Both the position numbers and the translations under genes were made by a program. 9,391 nt of DNA, taken from the NCBI GenBank assembly GCA_021796315.1, contig JAJYOH010000200.1:1-9391 (forward strand), read 5' to 3'. The stretch comes from Chloroflexota bacterium (lineage in GTDB: Bacteria; Chloroflexota; Anaerolineae; Anaerolineales; Villigracilaceae). This document shows, piece by piece, positions 299 through 5,709 of the stretch; position 1 is the stretch's first letter, and each line of letters starts with the position of its first letter. Under the pieces are notes generated by a model. It made no database searches. It saw nothing but the letters and a program-made list of their open reading frames with translations, and had not been told where the DNA came from.

Positions 299-1201
299 TT
301 AATCACCATTCCAAATGCGTTTGCCCAAAGCGGACAAAACAAATTCAACCGCCAATTCACCGGTCTGGTTTTGAATATCCAGGATGGGGTTGACTTCCAC
401 GATATCCATGCCGATCAAATTTTTTGTCTCGGCGATCATCTCGCAGGCCATGTGAACTTCGCGCTGGGTCAACCCGGCGGGCACAGGCGTACCGACGCCG
501 GGAGCATGGCGCGGGTCCATGGCGTCCATGTCGAACGAAAGATAGACACCGTCCACGTCGCGGCTGACTCGTTCGATGGCCTTTTCCAGCGCGGAGGTCA
601 TGCCAAGACGGTCGATCTGTTCCATGCCCATGACCATGACGCCGGCTTCGCGCAGGTTGGACTTTTCGCCCGGGTCGAGATCGCGCGCTCCGATAACGGC
701 CACCCGCTTCGGGTCCACGACTGGAAGCGGCTCGTCCCACAATTGGGTTAAGCGCGCGTCCCCAAACCCGCACAACGCGGCCAGCGGCATCCCGTGAATG
801 TTTCCGGATGGAGTTGTTTTCCCGGTGTTGAAATCTGCGTGCGCGTCGATCCAGATCACCCCAAGTTTTTTATGTTTGGCCGCGCCGCGAATGGACCCGA
901 GCGAAAGGCTGTGATCGCCGCCCAGCACGAGCGGAAAATGTCCGCCCTGAATCGATGTGGCAACCGCGCCTGCCGCGCGCCGCGACATGGGTACGATGCA
1001 ATCAATGTATTTGAGTTTGGGATCGTTGATCGTGCACATCTCGGCGATGGGCACCTCGATGTTGCCGTGATCTTCCACATCATATCCAAGCTCTTCAAGT
1101 TTCTTTTGCAGACGCGCGTATCGGATCGCGCTTGGCCCCATGTCCACACCGCGCCGGTCTGCGCCGAGATCAATGGGGATACCGATAATATCAATTTGCA
1201 T
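299..1201 (-). CDS. rocF: Arginase (L-arginine to L-ornithine and urea)
   Basis: This 300-residue cytosolic dimanganese ureohydrolase should hydrolyse arginine to ornithine and urea. The first residues (IDIIGIPIDLGADRRGVDMG, then PSAIR) are the classic arginase opening. The expected metal ligands are all present: H97 in GGDHS, D119, H121 and D123 in DAHADFN, and D224 and D226 in SFDMDAMDP. Substrate residues by comparison with human arginase are also present: N125, S132 and N134 in SGNIHG, H136, D176 in RDLDPGE, and E269 in EVNP. This set separates it from agmatinase and from the formimidoylglutamase HutG, the main alternatives in this superfamily. Length is normal. GGAGG lies 4 nt before the ATG, fixing the start. 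The gene diverges from the cytochrome b561 gene across a 144-bp intergenic region. HutI lies about 0.9 kb away on the same strand, a loose grouping of amino-acid nitrogen catabolism. Confidence 0.95.
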   Translation of the reverse strand: MQIDIIGIPIDLGADRRGVDMGPSAIRYARLQKKLEELGYDVEDHGNIEVPIAEMCTINDPKLKYIDCIVPMSRRAAGAVATSIQGGHFPLVLGGDHSLSLGSIRGAAKHKKLGVIWIDAHADFNTGKTTPSGNIHGMPLAALCGFGDARLTQLWDEPLPVVDPKRVAVIGARDLDPGEKSNLREAGVMVMGMEQIDRLGMTSALEKAIERVSRDVDGVYLSFDMDAMDPRHAPGVGTPVPAGLTQREVHMACEMIAETKNLIGMDIVEVNPILDIQNQTGELAVEFVLSALGKRIWNGD

Positions 1202-1281
1202 GTTGCCTCCGGTTTTGTAAGAGGCGGCTATTGTATCAAAAGTATTTCACCAGAGCCATGAGAAAAAGGTTTATGACAGGA

Positions 1282-1298
1282 AAATGACCTCGTCATTT
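1282..1298. promoter_or_regulatory. Perfect 7+3+7 palindrome between arginase and cytochrome b561 genes
   Basis: AAATGAC, a CTC spacer and GTCATTT form a perfect inverted repeat in the middle of the divergent intergenic region. A possible -10 (TATACT, 1318-1323) for the plus-strand gene follows it. The motif GGGAACTTT at 1310-1318 could alternatively be part of an ECF-type -35 element. Size and symmetry fit a dimeric repressor site. No regulator gene is present in the window, so the operator role is inference. Confidence 0.4.
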
Positions 1299-1345
1299 GG
1301 TGTTCATCTGGGAACTTTATACTTTCCGCAAAGGAGAATTAATAG

Positions 1346-1825
1346 ATGTCGAATTCAGTTGTTTCAAAAGCTAGCCGCTATCATCCCATTTCGGTGATCC
1401 TGCATTGGGCGGTGGTCTTGTTGATGTTTGCCGCTGTGCTGTTTGCCGGGGATGATGGAGGCGGAAACCTTGGGCTTCACACCCTTGTCGGCGGTATTAT
1501 TCTGGCGCTGATGTTGATCCGCTTTGCCATGCGTTGGATCGTCAAGCAGCCCGAATGGGCCAGCACGGGAAACAGTTTTCTTGATTTGGTAGGGAAGCTA
1601 ACGCATTTTGCTTTGTACTTTTTCACGTTCTCGATTCTTGCCACCGGCGCGTTCCTGTTCTTGAACGGCGGCCAGGGCGGCTTTCTTATCGGTGCTTTCC
1701 ACGCTTTGAGCTGGTTTGCGTTGTTCCTTCTGATCGTGTTGCATGTCGGCGCGGCGTTTTACCATCAGTTCTTCATCAAGGATAATTTGCTCGGACGAAT
1801 GTGGTTCGGCAGGCAGACAGAATAA
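1346..1825 (+). CDS. Cytochrome b561-family integral membrane protein
   Basis: This 159-residue protein matches the prokaryotic cytochrome b561 (CybB-like) family: small inner-membrane dihaem b proteins moving electrons between quinols and partners. It opens with RYHPISVILHWAVVLLM, the family's usual start in which a histidine sits at the edge of helix 1. Four hydrophobic segments are visible, at about residues 15-34, 46-66, 83-107 and 117-140. Haem-ligand candidates are H20, H45, H87, H133 and H140. AGGAG lies 9 nt upstream of the ATG. The gene stands alone on the plus strand, diverging from arginase and converging with a small membrane peptide across a hairpin terminator. The in vivo electron partner cannot be read from the sequence. 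A haem-binding subunit of a hydrogenase or formate dehydrogenase is the main alternative, but no such partner gene is adjacent. Confidence 0.85.
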   Translation: MSNSVVSKASRYHPISVILHWAVVLLMFAAVLFAGDDGGGNLGLHTLVGGIILALMLIRFAMRWIVKQPEWASTGNSFLDLVGKLTHFALYFFTFSILATGAFLFLNGGQGGFLIGAFHALSWFALFLLIVLHVGAAFYHQFFIKDNLLGRMWFGRQTE

Positions 1826-1845
1826 AGCGAAAGATTCAAAAGAAG

Positions 1846-1878
1846 AAGCGACAGTCCCATCCATGGCGACTGTCGCTT
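1846..1878. terminator. Bidirectional rho-independent terminator
   Basis: AAGCGACAGTC (1846-1856) and GACTGTCGCTT (1868-1878) form a perfect 11-bp stem with an 11-nt loop. On the plus strand the stem runs into TTTTGTT, ending the cytochrome b561 transcript. On the minus strand it is followed by CTTCTTTTG, serving the convergent small membrane gene whose stop codon is 3 nt from the stem. Confidence 0.85.
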
Positions 1879-1881
1879 TTG

Positions 1882-2097
1882 TTATATCAATTTGAAGTAG
1901 TGCAGCAGATACCACACAATCAGGATGAACAATATCGTCCCGCAACCGTGCCAGAAGAAGTGCACAACAAATTGCACGATGTGAGCAACGATGTGAAGGA
2001 AGTATCTCGCGATGATCACCACCAACAGCAGCGCAACGATGATGATCGCCCATTGAATGGCGGAATTTGACAATGGGTTGCTTAGGTCAATGTTCAT
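1882..2097 (-). CDS. Small two-helix membrane protein (71 aa)
   Basis: This short gene of unknown function encodes a very hydrophobic protein with a polar start (MNIDLSNPLSNS), a first membrane segment at about residues 13-32 and a second at about 48-66. The connecting stretch is rich in histidine and aromatic residues (RYFLHIVAHIVQFVVHFFWH). Histidines recur at 35, 39, 46 and 50, three or four residues apart and partly along one helix face, which could suit metal or haem contact, although this is only suggestive. A good AGGAG lies 6 nt before the ATG, and the gene ends beside a strong terminator, both arguing for a real gene. It begins 15 bp after the hutI stop, so the two probably share a transcript. 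No family name is recognised. Confidence 0.75.
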   Translation of the reverse strand: MNIDLSNPLSNSAIQWAIIIVALLLVVIIARYFLHIVAHIVQFVVHFFWHGCGTILFILIVWYLLHYFKLI

Positions 2098-2112
2098 ATC
2101 AACTCCTGAAAG

Positions 2113-3387
2113 TTATGCTGTCCGATAATAACCGACATCCACCGAATAAACTCGTCCACATTTGACAACCTGCTTGACCAGATTGGTTCCGTAGCGATAA
2201 CCAACGTGACGATAATCCGGGACATTGAGGATTAATAAGTCCGCTTGTTTGCCTTCCTCGAGCGAACCGATCTTATCGGACCTGCGAATGGCGTGCGCAG
2301 AATTGATCGTGGAGGCGGCAATGGCCTGGGCGGGAGTCAGCCCCATCGTGCGGCAAGCCAGCGCGATGACAAACTGCATCGACTCGTTCCAGGTAGTGCC
2401 GGGGTTGCAGTCGGTGGCGAGGGCAAAATATCCGTCTGCGGCGATGATTTTTTTGGCAGGCGTGTAATCGCGCTCGGCGAGTCCGAATGGCGTGCAGGGA
2501 AGCGAGACCGCGACCGTATCCGATTTGGCCAGCGCAGCAATATCCGCGTCAGATGTTTTGACGAGATGATCTGCCGAGGCCGCGCCCAACTCCGCTGCCA
2601 GCGACGCGCCGCCGAGATTGTCGAATTCATCAGCGTGGATCTTGAGCGGGAATCCCAGCCCCGCGGCTGTGGTCAGGACCTGACGCGATTGTTCCAAAGT
2701 AAAGGCTTTGTTCTCGCAGAAGACGTCCACAAAAGGCAAAGGCAGGCGCGGAGCATGAGTCTGCCACCAATCGTGAACAGTCGGAAGCATCGTGTCGCAA
2801 ACAAGATCAGTGTAACCTTGCGGGTCGTCTTTGAATTCAGGCGCGATGGCGTGCGCGCCGAGAAAGGTGATGGCGAGATCGAGCGGACTTTCATCGTCGA
2901 GGGCCAGCAGGGCTTTGAGCAGACGCAGTTCGGTGGCGGTTTGCAGGCCGTAACCAGTCTTGGCTTCGGCGGTGGTTGTCCCACAAGCAAACATTCGCAG
3001 CAAACGCGAGCGGGTCTGTGCGATCAACGTTTCAATGGAAGCAGCGCGCGTTTGTTTGACAGTGGAAATAATTCCGCCGCCTGCCGCCAGAATATCGAGA
3101 TAAGGCGTGCCCGCCATTTTCATCTCGAACTCGCTGGCGCGGTCACCCGCCCAGATGAGGTGCGTGTGCGGATCAACGAAGCCGGGCAGGATGACACAGC
3201 CGCTAGCATCCAGCGTTGGCTCATCTTTGTACGAGGCGCGCAGTTCATCAGTGGGACCAACCGCCACGATCTTTTCTTCGCGGATCAGGATTGCACCGTT
3301 TGGAATGATACCAAGCGTGCCAAGCGCGTGTCCGCGTTGCGGGCCGCCTGCAAGGGTCAGAAGTTGGGTGGAGGAGTGGATGAGCAT
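2113..3387 (-). CDS. hutI: Imidazolonepropionase
   Basis: HutI catalyses the third step of histidine degradation, opening 4-imidazolone-5-propionate to N-formimino-L-glutamate in the cytosol. The 424-residue product is an amidohydrolase-superfamily protein of normal length. It has the metal-binding H74 and H76 in PGFVDPHTHL, R83 of the substrate pocket, TTTAEAKTGYGL at about 137-148, H179 in FLGAHAIAPE, H251 and E254 in KIHADEF, H274 in SADHL and D326 in ATDCNPGT. These are the HutI-specific versions of the motifs, separating it from dihydroorotase or cytosine deaminase relatives. The start is ATG 3385-3387 with only a weak upstream GGAAA. No hutH, hutU or hutG is in the window. The restriction-modification pair ends just 29 bp upstream with no visible terminator, so hutI may be read from that transcript. 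A small membrane gene follows 15 bp downstream. Confidence 0.95.
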   Translation of the reverse strand: MLIHSSTQLLTLAGGPQRGHALGTLGIIPNGAILIREEKIVAVGPTDELRASYKDEPTLDASGCVILPGFVDPHTHLIWAGDRASEFEMKMAGTPYLDILAAGGGIISTVKQTRAASIETLIAQTRSRLLRMFACGTTTAEAKTGYGLQTATELRLLKALLALDDESPLDLAITFLGAHAIAPEFKDDPQGYTDLVCDTMLPTVHDWWQTHAPRLPLPFVDVFCENKAFTLEQSRQVLTTAAGLGFPLKIHADEFDNLGGASLAAELGAASADHLVKTSDADIAALAKSDTVAVSLPCTPFGLAERDYTPAKKIIAADGYFALATDCNPGTTWNESMQFVIALACRTMGLTPAQAIAASTINSAHAIRRSDKIGSLEEGKQADLLILNVPDYRHVGYRYGTNLVKQVVKCGRVYSVDVGYYRTA

Positions 3388-3422
3388 TTCAGTTTCCGGT
3401 GTTCAGTAATCAGTATTCAGTT
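3388..3422. repeat. 7-bp tandem repeat (TTCAGTA-like) between hutI and the methyltransferase gene
   Basis: Units at 3388 (TTCAGTT), 3402 (TTCAGTA), 3409 (ATCAGTA) and 3416 (TTCAGTT) lie in 7-bp register, with one degenerate unit at 3395. The array fills the whole gap between the two genes, and its last unit contributes the TGA stop codon of the methyltransferase (3417-3419). The core resembles the GATTCAGC arrays around the S23-type gene further right. Confidence 0.6.
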
Positions 3423-4349
3423 GACCGTGTGTGGAGTGTAAATCACATAATCGTCTTTGTGCGATTTCTCAAACAGAGCCATTTGTTTTTCTAATTGGAT
3501 ATCCATTTGCGGCATGGGGTTGTAGTTGAGGATAATCGCTTCGAGCATTGGATTGCGATTCTTTTCGCTTGCGCCTACATGATAGAAATGTTGGCGTGTC
3601 AAAATCGTGAAGCGATAAGCATATTTTTCAATTGCCAGATTTGAACGGTATTGATTGCTGTGCCATGTTGAAAGGATAAATTTTGCCGGAGTATTATCGA
3701 GCCATTCGTAAAGTTCCTGCTCATCTTGCTCTGACCACGAATTGAAATAATCAACGTGTCTGCCAATGTAAGGCGGGTCGCAATAAATAAAATCATTGGC
3801 TGATGCGGACGAAATGATTTTTTTGAAATCGGCGCAGATGAATTGCCAATCGTATTGACTGGTTGCCTGTGTCACATATTTGATTTGGTTTGTGATTTTG
3901 GTGACGTAGGCTTTGGCGAAACGTTCAGGTTTGTGACCAAACGGAACATTGAATCCGCCTTTCTTGTTGAAGCGCATTACGCCGTTGAAGCAAGCGCGGT
4001 TCAAGAAGAGTAAATCCAAAGGTTCGTGGTCTTTGTTAAATCGCTCGCGCACTTTATAGTAATGATCTTCGCCTTTTGCTTGAAGATATGTGCCTTCTTT
4101 TTCCAAAAATTCCTTGGCGATTCCGGCGGTAATTTTTTCCTGCTTGATGGCATTGTAGAAGTTGATAATGTGCGGATTTACGTCTGCAAAAATAGCGCGG
4201 CTCGGACGCATGTTGAATCCAACCACACCCGAACCCATAAATGGCTCAATCCATGTGCCGTCACTTTCGAGAACGGCATGGTCTTTGATCCAATCGACCA
4301 GTTTGGTCTTGATGCCCTGACATTTTAAGGGCGGGACGTTTACCGTCAT
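3417..4349 (-). CDS. EcoRV-type adenine-N6 DNA methyltransferase (predicted GATATC)
   Basis: This 310-residue D12-class N6-adenine methyltransferase should protect the host genome at the site cut by the adjacent endonuclease. PPLKCQGIKTKLVDWI opens the protein. The SAM-binding motif EPFMGSGVVGFN is at 35-46, FLNRACFNGVMRFN plus KKGGFNVPF at 115-137, and the catalytic CDPPYIGRHVDYFNSW at about 190-205. HFYHVGASEKNR appears near the C terminus. From memory these blocks match M.EcoRV almost word for word, and more closely than Dam or M.DpnII, so the predicted product is methylated GATATC. The start codon overlaps the endonuclease stop as ATGA (4346-4349), implying translational coupling. The stop falls in a short tandem repeat next to hutI. 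The gene is noticeably AT-richer than hutI. One GATATC site lies inside the gene itself (3498-3503). Confidence 0.93.
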   Translation of the reverse strand: MTVNVPPLKCQGIKTKLVDWIKDHAVLESDGTWIEPFMGSGVVGFNMRPSRAIFADVNPHIINFYNAIKQEKITAGIAKEFLEKEGTYLQAKGEDHYYKVRERFNKDHEPLDLLFLNRACFNGVMRFNKKGGFNVPFGHKPERFAKAYVTKITNQIKYVTQATSQYDWQFICADFKKIISSASANDFIYCDPPYIGRHVDYFNSWSEQDEQELYEWLDNTPAKFILSTWHSNQYRSNLAIEKYAYRFTILTRQHFYHVGASEKNRNPMLEAIILNYNPMPQMDIQLEKQMALFEKSHKDDYVIYTPHTVN

Positions 4350-5218
4350 TTCTGCACTCGCCTATTCTTGCGTGCAGGTTTCCTCGTCATTGGGTTGGCA
4401 AGTTTTTGGTCTTTCCCGCGATAAGCCAGATATTCTTTTAGTAATGTGATTTGCTTTACTTTGCCATCGGGTTTAGTTGTTTGGATTTTGCCATAATTCA
4501 TCCAATAATCATCGAACCATTTTTCGCCGAGCTTTTTGAAAACGCCATTGCCTTCCAAAATATCGCTTATTTTTGTGATGCTACCAATGTTTGCTGTATT
4601 AGAACTGCCTTGATAATCGCTGGCGATTTCCCATTTCTCGTGAACAAAGAATTCAAAATCATTGATGACGGATGTGATGGATTTCAACTCTTCCAAGCGA
4701 TAGGTTTTGGTTTCATCGCTTTTCTCGGAACCTGAACGTGAATAGATAATGCCAAGACAAAAATGTCCGAGATATTCACTGTAAGGAAATTGAATGTTCT
4801 TGTTGCTTTTGCGGTTGATGAAATATTCGCCGCGTGAACCAAGGGTAAAACCATTGCAGAATTCAGGATTGTCGGGCAGACGATACGTAGTTTTTAAATC
4901 AACAGCGAATTTGATACTTTCATCATCCGCGTTGACGAAAGACAAATCAGGATAATAGTTTTGCTGTTCAGCAAGAACAATGCGATAGTTGCTTTGATTG
5001 GCAAATTCAAGCAATTTCGGGAACAAGTGAATTTCAAGAATCTTGGAGACGATCTTTGTGTCTGCTGAAATTGTGTAAATGTTGCGGAACACATCAATAA
5101 AGCCTTTGATTGTCCATTGATCGTCGGGCGTGGAAACATGGCCTTTGAGAGTTTCGACGAATTCGGTTAGCGCTTGCTTGAATTCCGCTTTGAGCTGTTC
5201 TCGTTTTTGCTTTGGCAT
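4346..5218 (-). CDS. EcoRV-family type II restriction endonuclease (predicted GATATC)
   Basis: This 290-residue endonuclease is predicted to cut DNA at GATATC. Its PD-(D/E)xK core is YPDLSF with D91, then VDLKTTY with D107 and K109, and an upstream E62. The spacings D91-D107, D107-K109 and E62-D91 equal those of EcoRV D74, D90, K92 and E45. The minor-groove loop QQN (85-87) corresponds to EcoRV Q68-Q69-N70, and the recognition loop GSSNTANIGS (204-213) to GSGNTTNIGS. Family members are about 245 residues; this one has about 17 extra N-terminal residues and a basic tail (KPARKNRRVQK). ATG 5216-5218 is chosen because GGAG lies 6 nt upstream. Earlier in-frame GTG 5248 and ATG 5245 abut or overlap a TATAAT box and are unlikely starts. 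The first gene of an operon with the methyltransferase, it is AT-rich and probably acquired. Confidence 0.92.
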   Translation of the reverse strand: MPKQKREQLKAEFKQALTEFVETLKGHVSTPDDQWTIKGFIDVFRNIYTISADTKIVSKILEIHLFPKLLEFANQSNYRIVLAEQQNYYPDLSFVNADDESIKFAVDLKTTYRLPDNPEFCNGFTLGSRGEYFINRKSNKNIQFPYSEYLGHFCLGIIYSRSGSEKSDETKTYRLEELKSITSVINDFEFFVHEKWEIASDYQGSSNTANIGSITKISDILEGNGVFKKLGEKWFDDYWMNYGKIQTTKPDGKVKQITLLKEYLAYRGKDQKLANPMTRKPARKNRRVQK

Positions 5219-5230
5219 TTTTGTCTCCGT

Positions 5231-5264
5231 AATGAAATTATACATCACGCTGTGATGCAGGTAA
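5231..5264 (-). promoter_or_regulatory. Candidate promoter and palindromic operator of the restriction-modification operon
   Basis: On the minus strand a perfect TATAAT (plus 5237-5242) lies 19-24 nt before the chosen endonuclease start. A weak -35 candidate, GTTACC (plus 5260-5265 approximately), is 17 nt further upstream. The spacer is almost exactly filled by CATCAC-AGC-GTGATG (5243-5257), a perfect 6+3+6 inverted repeat placed where a bound protein would block RNA polymerase. The regulator is unknown; no C-protein gene is seen. Confidence 0.5.
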
Positions 5265-5304
5265 CGAAAAGCCGCCCCTTTCGGAGCGGCCTTTGATTAC
5301 CTGC
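5257..5304 (-). terminator. Rho-independent terminator in a long hairpin, downstream of the 5332-5709 gene
   Basis: Read on the minus strand, GCCGCTCC, a GAAA tetraloop and GGGGCGGC (plus 5271-5290) form an 8-bp stem followed by TTTTCG, a standard terminator for the gene ending at 5332. Outside it, GCAGGTAA (5257-5264) and TTACCTGC (5297-5304) form a second perfect 8-bp arm, so the whole 48 nt can fold as one hairpin. Its outer arm overlaps the -35 area of the restriction operon. Confidence 0.8.
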
Positions 5305-5331
5305 AATTGCACAACAAAACGATTTCTTTGA

Positions 5332-5709
5332 CTACTCCGCCGGGCCAATAAACTGAAAAAAAGCAAAAGCGATGGCGAAGAAGCCATAAATGACCACCGC
5401 CGACCAGCCAAGAACGTTCATGGTGCCGGAGAGCGTCCCGCCGATGGAAACGATTAAGCCAACGGCGCTGGAGATCAGAATGGACAATGTGATGGCGTTT
5501 CGCTCACTGGAGGCGGTCGCGTCGCGAGCCAGCAGGGTGACCAGGCCGGACATCAACAGTTGAACGCCGAAGAACTGGGCCAGCAATCTGTCTCCGGCTG
5601 TGGTGGTGATGCCGTATAAGAACAGCATGGTCTGTGGGATCAACAAAAGTCCCAGCGAGTATAGCAAAGCGATCAGTGAGTGGATCAAAAACAGGTTGCG
5701 AAGTTTCAT
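5332..5709 (-). CDS. Four-helix membrane protein of unknown function (125 aa)
   Basis: This small integral membrane protein has four hydrophobic segments at about residues 6-26, 38-60, 70-92 and 96-120. It begins MKLRNLFLIHSLIALLYSLG, then LLLIPQTMLFLYGI. The pattern of a LIPQTMLFLYG turn, a single GDRLLAQFFGVQLL segment and a C-terminal GWSAVVIYGFFAIAFAF matches a widespread unnamed family of about 125-residue membrane proteins. I know no function for it. ATG 5707-5709 is preferred over the in-frame TTG at 5715 because AAAGGAG lies 7 nt upstream of the ATG. A possible -10 (TAAAAT, plus 5737-5742) lies about 30 nt before the start, with a poor -35. It appears monocistronic, bounded downstream by a strong terminator and upstream by a 74-bp gap to the methyltransferase stop. 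Confidence 0.8.
   Translation of the reverse strand: MKLRNLFLIHSLIALLYSLGLLLIPQTMLFLYGITTTAGDRLLAQFFGVQLLMSGLVTLLARDATASSERNAITLSILISSAVGLIVSIGGTLSGTMNVLGWSAVVIYGFFAIAFAFFQFIGPAE

Follow-up and report, generated by a model that had tools for sequence, protein, structure and literature searches.

Genes and features of the locus

The window, by which we mean the whole stretch of DNA that was analyzed, comprises 9,391 nucleotides of contig JAJYOH010000200.1 from a Chloroflexota bacterium. Two genes are arranged in tandem on its minus strand. The first encodes an EcoRV-family type II restriction endonuclease of 290 amino acids (4346..5218, with the ATG at 5218 and the TGA at 4346), and the second an M.EcoRV-like adenine-N6 methyltransferase of 310 amino acids (3417..4349, with the ATG at 4349 and the stop codon at 3417). 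As read from the sequence, the endonuclease stop and the methyltransferase start overlap in ATGA (4346..4349, minus strand), an overlap also present in the Chloroflexota loci L001-L019. An earlier, sequence-only reading of this DNA had described a nuclease-first tandem pair with such a 4-bp overlap, and both open reading frames indeed lie at these positions on the minus strand.

The pair is separated from its neighbors by 113 bp and 29 bp. The gene for imidazolonepropionase, hutI (2113..3387, minus strand; TIGR01224, E 4.7e-134), starts 29 bp past the methyltransferase and runs in the same direction. A G+C-rich hairpin noticed by eye (5271..5290, minus strand) may be the terminator of the upstream gene for a 127-aa protein; it is absent from the terminator scan list, and locus L003 carries a similar inverted repeat. 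The flanking genes are housekeeping-like (arginase, a cytochrome b561-type protein, hutI, the 127-aa protein and a methyltransferase-domain protein), with further genes for an MFS-like transporter, whose matches fell below curated cut-offs, and for a four-helix bundle protein. The gene for the latter (TIGR02436; 7667-8074 of the window) lies amid the housekeeping genes. When calculated in 500-base windows, the G+C content is 39-44% inside the pair, as compared to 45-62% in the flanks. Both the nearest loci and the nearest organism-named proteins are from Anaerolineae or other Chloroflexota.

The two proteins and their likely target

The window endonuclease matches the Pfam family Endonuc-EcoRV (PF09233) over residues 28-268 with an E-value of 6.8e-117, and its score of 389.6 bits, covering profile positions 2-244 of 244, passes the curated cut-off of 25. 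Solved EcoRV chains in the PDB match as well (E 1.6e-38), and the identity to EcoRV of plasmid pEC159 is 34%. The residues D74, D90 and K92, named as catalytic for EcoRV in section 21 of PMC4081073, which also describes what the R- and Q-loops do, correspond to D91, D107 and K109 of the window endonuclease. The Q-loop is QQN, as in EcoRV, and the R-loop is GSSNTANIGS, as compared to GSGNTTNIGS in EcoRV, the changes being Gly184 to Ser and Thr187 to Ala. The EcoRV signatures that the sequence-only reading had seen in the nuclease are thus all present.

EcoRV, the window endonuclease and 67 relatives were aligned to examine residue conservation. D74, D90 and K92 have unchanged counterparts in the window and in 67/67 relatives, and Gln69, Lys119, Arg140, Gly182, Ser183, Asn185, Thr186 and Asn188 are likewise invariant throughout the alignment. 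The window has Ser at the position of Gly184, as do 19 of the 67 relatives, these being exactly L001-L019, all of them Chloroflexota records. In EcoRV itself, Gly184 touches bases. When the window endonuclease was compared with seven close relatives, pN was 0.048-0.075 and pS was 0.68-0.78, and such low pN values relative to pS in all seven comparisons point to strong purifying selection.

The methyltransferase belongs to the D12 class (PF02086, E 1.2e-46) and contains the DPPY motif. Its match to TIGR00571 exceeds the cut-off and it also matches the PADLOC model MTase_II PDLC03264 (E 1.4e-122). Over residues 3-275, it is 57% identical to the methyltransferase encoded beside EcoRV on pEC159, with long identical blocks, among them YCDPPYIGRHVDYFNSW, which bears out the near-verbatim M.EcoRV blocks noted previously. 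Judged from these matches, chance is excluded as the source of the resemblance of both window proteins to the EcoRV pair. We regard the pair as an ordinary anti-phage system of EcoRV type that is probably active.

As the catalytic residues and nearly all of the recognition-loop residues are kept, GATATC is the likely target, as predicted from both proteins. The window contains this site at 401 and 3498, and the latter falls inside the methyltransferase gene. No avoidance of GATATC was seen when nine carriers (median 238 sites per Mb) were compared with 49 genomes lacking an endonuclease match (236 per Mb; Mann-Whitney p 0.85), where these are raw densities unmatched for base composition, with three broken-copy genomes left out and the reversed word CTATAG serving as control. 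Avoidance is not obligatory, and its absence speaks neither for nor against the target. One genome, G1220 (L151, L154 and L167), in which the endonuclease is split between frames, has 69 GATATC sites in 2.6 Mb, i.e. 27 per Mb, versus 112 for the reversed control word; a few genomes without endonuclease are also low, at 36-41 GATATC per Mb.

Gene order across the EcoRV family

By stressing the translation of the nuclease before its methyltransferase, the sequence-only reading had implied that this order is odd. A methyltransferase match was found in 54 of 58 related genome-contig loci, and each of these 54 has both genes in tandem on the same strand, endonuclease first; several of them have a partial endonuclease or methyltransferase. 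The remaining four are L053 and L056, which run off the contig, and L055 and L058. Of 72 tandem loci in which the overlap was measured, the window included, 40 have a 4-base overlap; L061 and L067 were left unmeasured in this tally, L040 was mis-measured and some loci come from one genome.

Further PF09233 searches of phylum samples, which partly overlap the genomes behind the 58-locus set, yielded 14 positives among 395 genomes (phylum of G018), 5 among 398 (phylum of G017) and 15 among 400 (phylum of G001). The order is endonuclease-first in 28 of these 34 genomes, 26 having an M.EcoRV-like partner and two a divergent D12 methyltransferase. Four others are methyltransferase-first (G234, G829, G1101 and G1059) and one is convergent (G511). 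The divergent D12 partner was confirmed for G498, G478, G511 and G829, and assigned by resemblance for G1101 and G1059. In L138-L143, EcoRV-family endonucleases accompany a more divergent D12 methyltransferase of 357-377 aa, in endonuclease-first, methyltransferase-first and convergent orders.

Among plasmid copies, of which 7 of 12 records were examined, those of E. coli and Geobacillus carry an annotated HTH regulator gene ahead of the endonuclease, with the methyltransferase divergent, and those of Leuconostoc, Latilactobacillus and Acinetobacter have a regulator and a convergent methyltransferase. The regulator gene directly precedes the endonuclease gene in all five of these regulator-associated copies. 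In the Rhodothermus and Antarctobacter copies, the endonuclease is followed by the methyltransferase and no regulator is annotated alongside. The sequence-only reading had given the classic EcoRV genes as divergent, in agreement with the E. coli plasmid copy and with PMC5333194, which describes EcoRV as divergent and C-regulated.

A maximum-likelihood tree of 74 endonucleases, a subset of the loci from which seven with odd or partial frames were skipped, gathers 60 of the endonuclease-first rows into a single branch (SH-aLRT 99). It also splits 68 rows from 6 (support 100), and the six consist of all four regulator-associated plasmid copies in the tree together with two chromosomal rows, L140 and L144. 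The endonuclease-first rows L098, L103 and L106 fall outside the 60-row branch. This should be read as a quick tree, rooted at the midpoint and with long branches among distant rows. A search of viral contigs with close-relative patterns confirmed no relative; one distant phage relative comes from Halogranum tailed virus 1 (26.6% identity, two accessions).

The endonuclease-first EcoRV branch covers several phyla and, in this sampling, the divergent layout of classic EcoRV is the exception. The survey thus corrects the impression of an odd gene order, as do EcoRI and Eco29kI, two operons in which, according to PMC3874152 and PMC12707154, the endonuclease gene also comes before that for the methyltransferase. 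What stands of the sequence-only reading is the family, the pairing, the overlap and the gene order itself.

Comparison with known systems

The window pair shares with EcoRV of E. coli plasmids (e.g. pEC159) the PF09233 family, the catalytic residues, the loops and a methyltransferase of 57% identity. It differs in that EcoRV has a regulator gene before the endonuclease and the methyltransferase on the opposite strand, whereas the window has a tandem endonuclease and methyltransferase and no C gene, with an endonuclease that is 34% identical. The likeness to EcoRI and Eco29kI concerns the layout, which is read in the window from gene order and overlap. In PMC3874152 and PMC12707154, these two systems are also described as having their own promoter for the methyltransferase as well as antisense promoters; the Chloroflexota loci showed no conserved sign of these. 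Insofar as these sources show, endonuclease-first operons are already known and the window pair adds another system, of EcoRV type.

Tandem pairs of EcoRV type are also found on Rhodothermus pRMAR01 and Antarctobacter pSMS3-1, with the endonuclease followed by the methyltransferase, overlapping ends and no regulator annotated in a gene table that is incomplete. Unlike the window pair, these are plasmid-borne, and their endonucleases are 60% and 57% identical to that of the window. The Chloroflexota loci L001-L019 have the same order, the ATGA overlap, endonucleases of 77-90% identity and, mostly, the same promoter block, with hutI shown after the pair in four of them. Among the papers searched, none combines EcoRV, Anaerolinea and restriction.

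Promoter and translation signals

Upstream of the endonuclease lies a promoter-like block, TGATGTATAAT (5237..5247, minus strand), of the pattern TGnTGTATAAT. In 18 of 20 Chloroflexota loci (the window and L001-L019), the first base of TATAAT lies 22-34 nt ahead of the endonuclease start codon; L018 and L019 have no such upstream TATAAT. The full TGnTGTATAAT is found at the promoter position in 15 of the 19 relatives, or in 16/20 loci with the window; all 15 matches are at this place, with none elsewhere in the relatives' 278 kb, counting both strands. Inspection by eye showed no conserved -35 box. This block before the endonuclease, as a predicted promoter of the Chloroflexota loci, is a new detail. 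A Shine-Dalgarno-like GGAG (5225..5228, minus strand) lies 6 nt before the endonuclease ATG, and in 16 of 18 loci, the window included, the endonuclease start is preceded at 6-7 nt by GGAG or a longer match. Before the methyltransferase start, a 4-nt match at 6 nt was found in 2/18 loci and AAGG at 11 nt in 3/18.

A search for a conserved internal promoter of the methyltransferase gave none. An exact TATAAT is found in the 200 nt before the methyltransferase in none of the 20 Chloroflexota loci, and among 18 sequences no 12-codon window of either gene exceeded the shuffled limit for synonymous conservation. The largest excess, at methyltransferase codons 281-292, was +0.22, as compared to a limit of 0.27. 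As synonymous positions are near saturation among close relatives and still no peak of constraint is seen, a position-conserved internal promoter is unlikely, although an internal or antisense promoter that shifts its place or lacks an exact TATAAT escapes these tests. A promoter scan gave weak promoter-like sites inside the genes in both directions, with 7 in 3300-5500 versus 4.2 (sd 1.9) in shuffles. RNA folding of the two gene starts was set aside as evidence, as the stretches differed in length. With one promoter block before the endonuclease, no conserved sign of a methyltransferase promoter and little ribosome-binding signal at the methyltransferase, the simplest reading suggests a single bicistronic message, in which the methyltransferase would be translated by coupling at ATGA.

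Search for a regulator

The flanking gaps of the pair are too small for a C gene, and a regulator gene within the window operon was thus rejected. Upstream regions were also surveyed in 64 endonuclease-first loci, the window included, for small ORFs (55-140 aa) on the same strand that terminate close to the beginning of the endonuclease gene, with five regulator-associated plasmid loci as controls and with L006 and L010 lacking upstream sequence. HTH_3 matched 5 of 35 such small ORFs, controls included, which equals the number of control regulators, the matching members being unnamed. A single-sequence C.EcoRV probe run on L001-L107 matched only L059 and L065; as it missed the annotated regulators of L062-L064, this probe is insensitive.

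A perfect inverted repeat, CATCAC-AGC-GTGATG, is found at the window promoter (5243-5257). It is perfect in the window alone among the 20 loci, and L003 has a different inverted repeat at the promoter position. As it is not kept in aligned relatives, the repeat was treated as a chance occurrence and not as an operator.

Residence at hutI and decay of the pair

The order of endonuclease, methyltransferase and hutI is common to the window, L001, L003, L004 and L006, with a gap of ~0.4 kb before hutI in L001; as several of the L001-L019 loci are short, other hutI neighbors may be unseen. Given this shared order in four relatives, the window copy was probably inherited at the hutI chromosomal site. 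When 30 hutI loci were examined (59 matches, one family), a methyltransferase was found upstream of hutI in five.

In a sample of 61 genomes of this same family, 12 had an endonuclease match and 13 a methyltransferase match, and all 12 were among the 13. The methyltransferase frame is free of inner stops in 13/13 genomes, whereas an intact endonuclease is missing in four of them, one with the methyltransferase alone (G838) and three with a broken endonuclease. Of the latter, G1220 has the endonuclease split between two frames, and only a C-terminal part was found in G1223 and G1230; in G1223, unrelated sequence fills the 435 bases between this remnant and the limit of the stretch examined. At the hutI site of G838, the methyltransferase is intact, and a PLD-type nuclease and an M.Eco57I-like methyltransferase occupy the place of the endonuclease. 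This genome (L145, contig 3 of G838, 564-4564) also has a 37-bp stretch, ~24 bp ahead of the methyltransferase start, that repeats the 5' end of hutI with 95% identity. In G1242 (L112, 3014-3319, minus strand), ~23 codons of the methyltransferase start are left at the hutI site; a piece resembling the start of hutI precedes this remnant and marks a lost copy. The nuclease thus seems to decay before the methyltransferase, as is expected of an active restriction-modification pair, although this is indirect evidence from few genomes, in which assembly faults are possible. The reverse was seen in G1160, one of the 34 PF09233-positive genomes and outside the 61-genome sample, where an endonuclease fragment is found with no methyltransferase match.

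Interpretation and alternative explanations

We are fairly confident that the window holds a chromosomal-looking type IIP system of the EcoRV family in Anaerolineae, in which GATATC would most likely be both cut and adenine-methylated and the genes would form a bicistronic unit with a coupled methyltransferase. The endonuclease would cut unmethylated GATATC, the methyltransferase would methylate the adenine in the same site, and both would be made from one message, with the methyltransferase depending on coupling at ATGA for its translation, given how little ribosome-binding signal precedes it. An active nuclease dimer accumulates more slowly, and in a new host, where both enzymes would appear nearly together, this slower build-up could give protection with no delay imposed by a transcription factor. 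Alternatively, the system may mostly descend within its lineage and seldom meet a naive host. Two endonuclease-first plasmid copies without an annotated regulator nonetheless show that this layout can also travel. Counted against this explanation are the lack of GATATC avoidance, the change of Gly184 to Ser and the lack of TATAAT in L018 and L019. As a statement on the whole regulator-less EcoRV branch, i.e. that one promoter precedes the nuclease, that the methyltransferase is made by coupling only and that, with no built-in methyltransferase-first delay, naive hosts survive through enzyme kinetics or inheritance within the lineage, the explanation is a tentative one, to which we give rather less than even weight.

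Regulation could instead resemble that of EcoRI and Eco29kI, where a methyltransferase promoter inside the endonuclease gene, together with antisense promoters, would favor the methyltransferase in a new host. The gene order is the same, such regulation is described for both of these endonuclease-first operons in PMC3874152 and PMC12707154, and the scan did give weak promoter-like sites of either orientation within the genes. However, the number of these sites is near chance, and neither an exact TATAAT before the methyltransferase nor a peak of synonymous constraint was found, which leaves this possibility on the unlikely side. The endonuclease might also be dead or shifted in specificity, so that the pair would no longer be a GATATC system, and the Ser in the R-loop, the lack of avoidance and the broken endonucleases of some relatives could all be taken in this sense. 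We consider this improbable, as D74, D90, K92, Lys119, Arg140, Asn185 and Thr186 are kept in the window and all 67 relatives, as the endonuclease is under strong purifying selection and as the methyltransferase is so close to that of EcoRV. Least probable is a C-like regulator acting in trans from elsewhere in the genome. Regulator-associated relatives of EcoRV do exist and the window promoter does carry a perfect inverted repeat, but the repeat is not kept in aligned relatives, even if L003 has another one there, and in the five regulator-associated plasmid copies the regulator directly precedes the endonuclease.

For the endonuclease-first branch, the protection of a newly entered host is a legitimate question, given that no C gene fits the window gaps and that the search for a position-conserved internal promoter of the methyltransferase was negative. 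The remaining interest of the pair thus lies in regulation, with a large branch that has no upstream regulator gene in the loci examined and with Chloroflexota members that have the promoter block in common and a methyltransferase start with little to mark it. Such a regulator-less branch would be a simple system in which to test the need for a methyltransferase-first delay.
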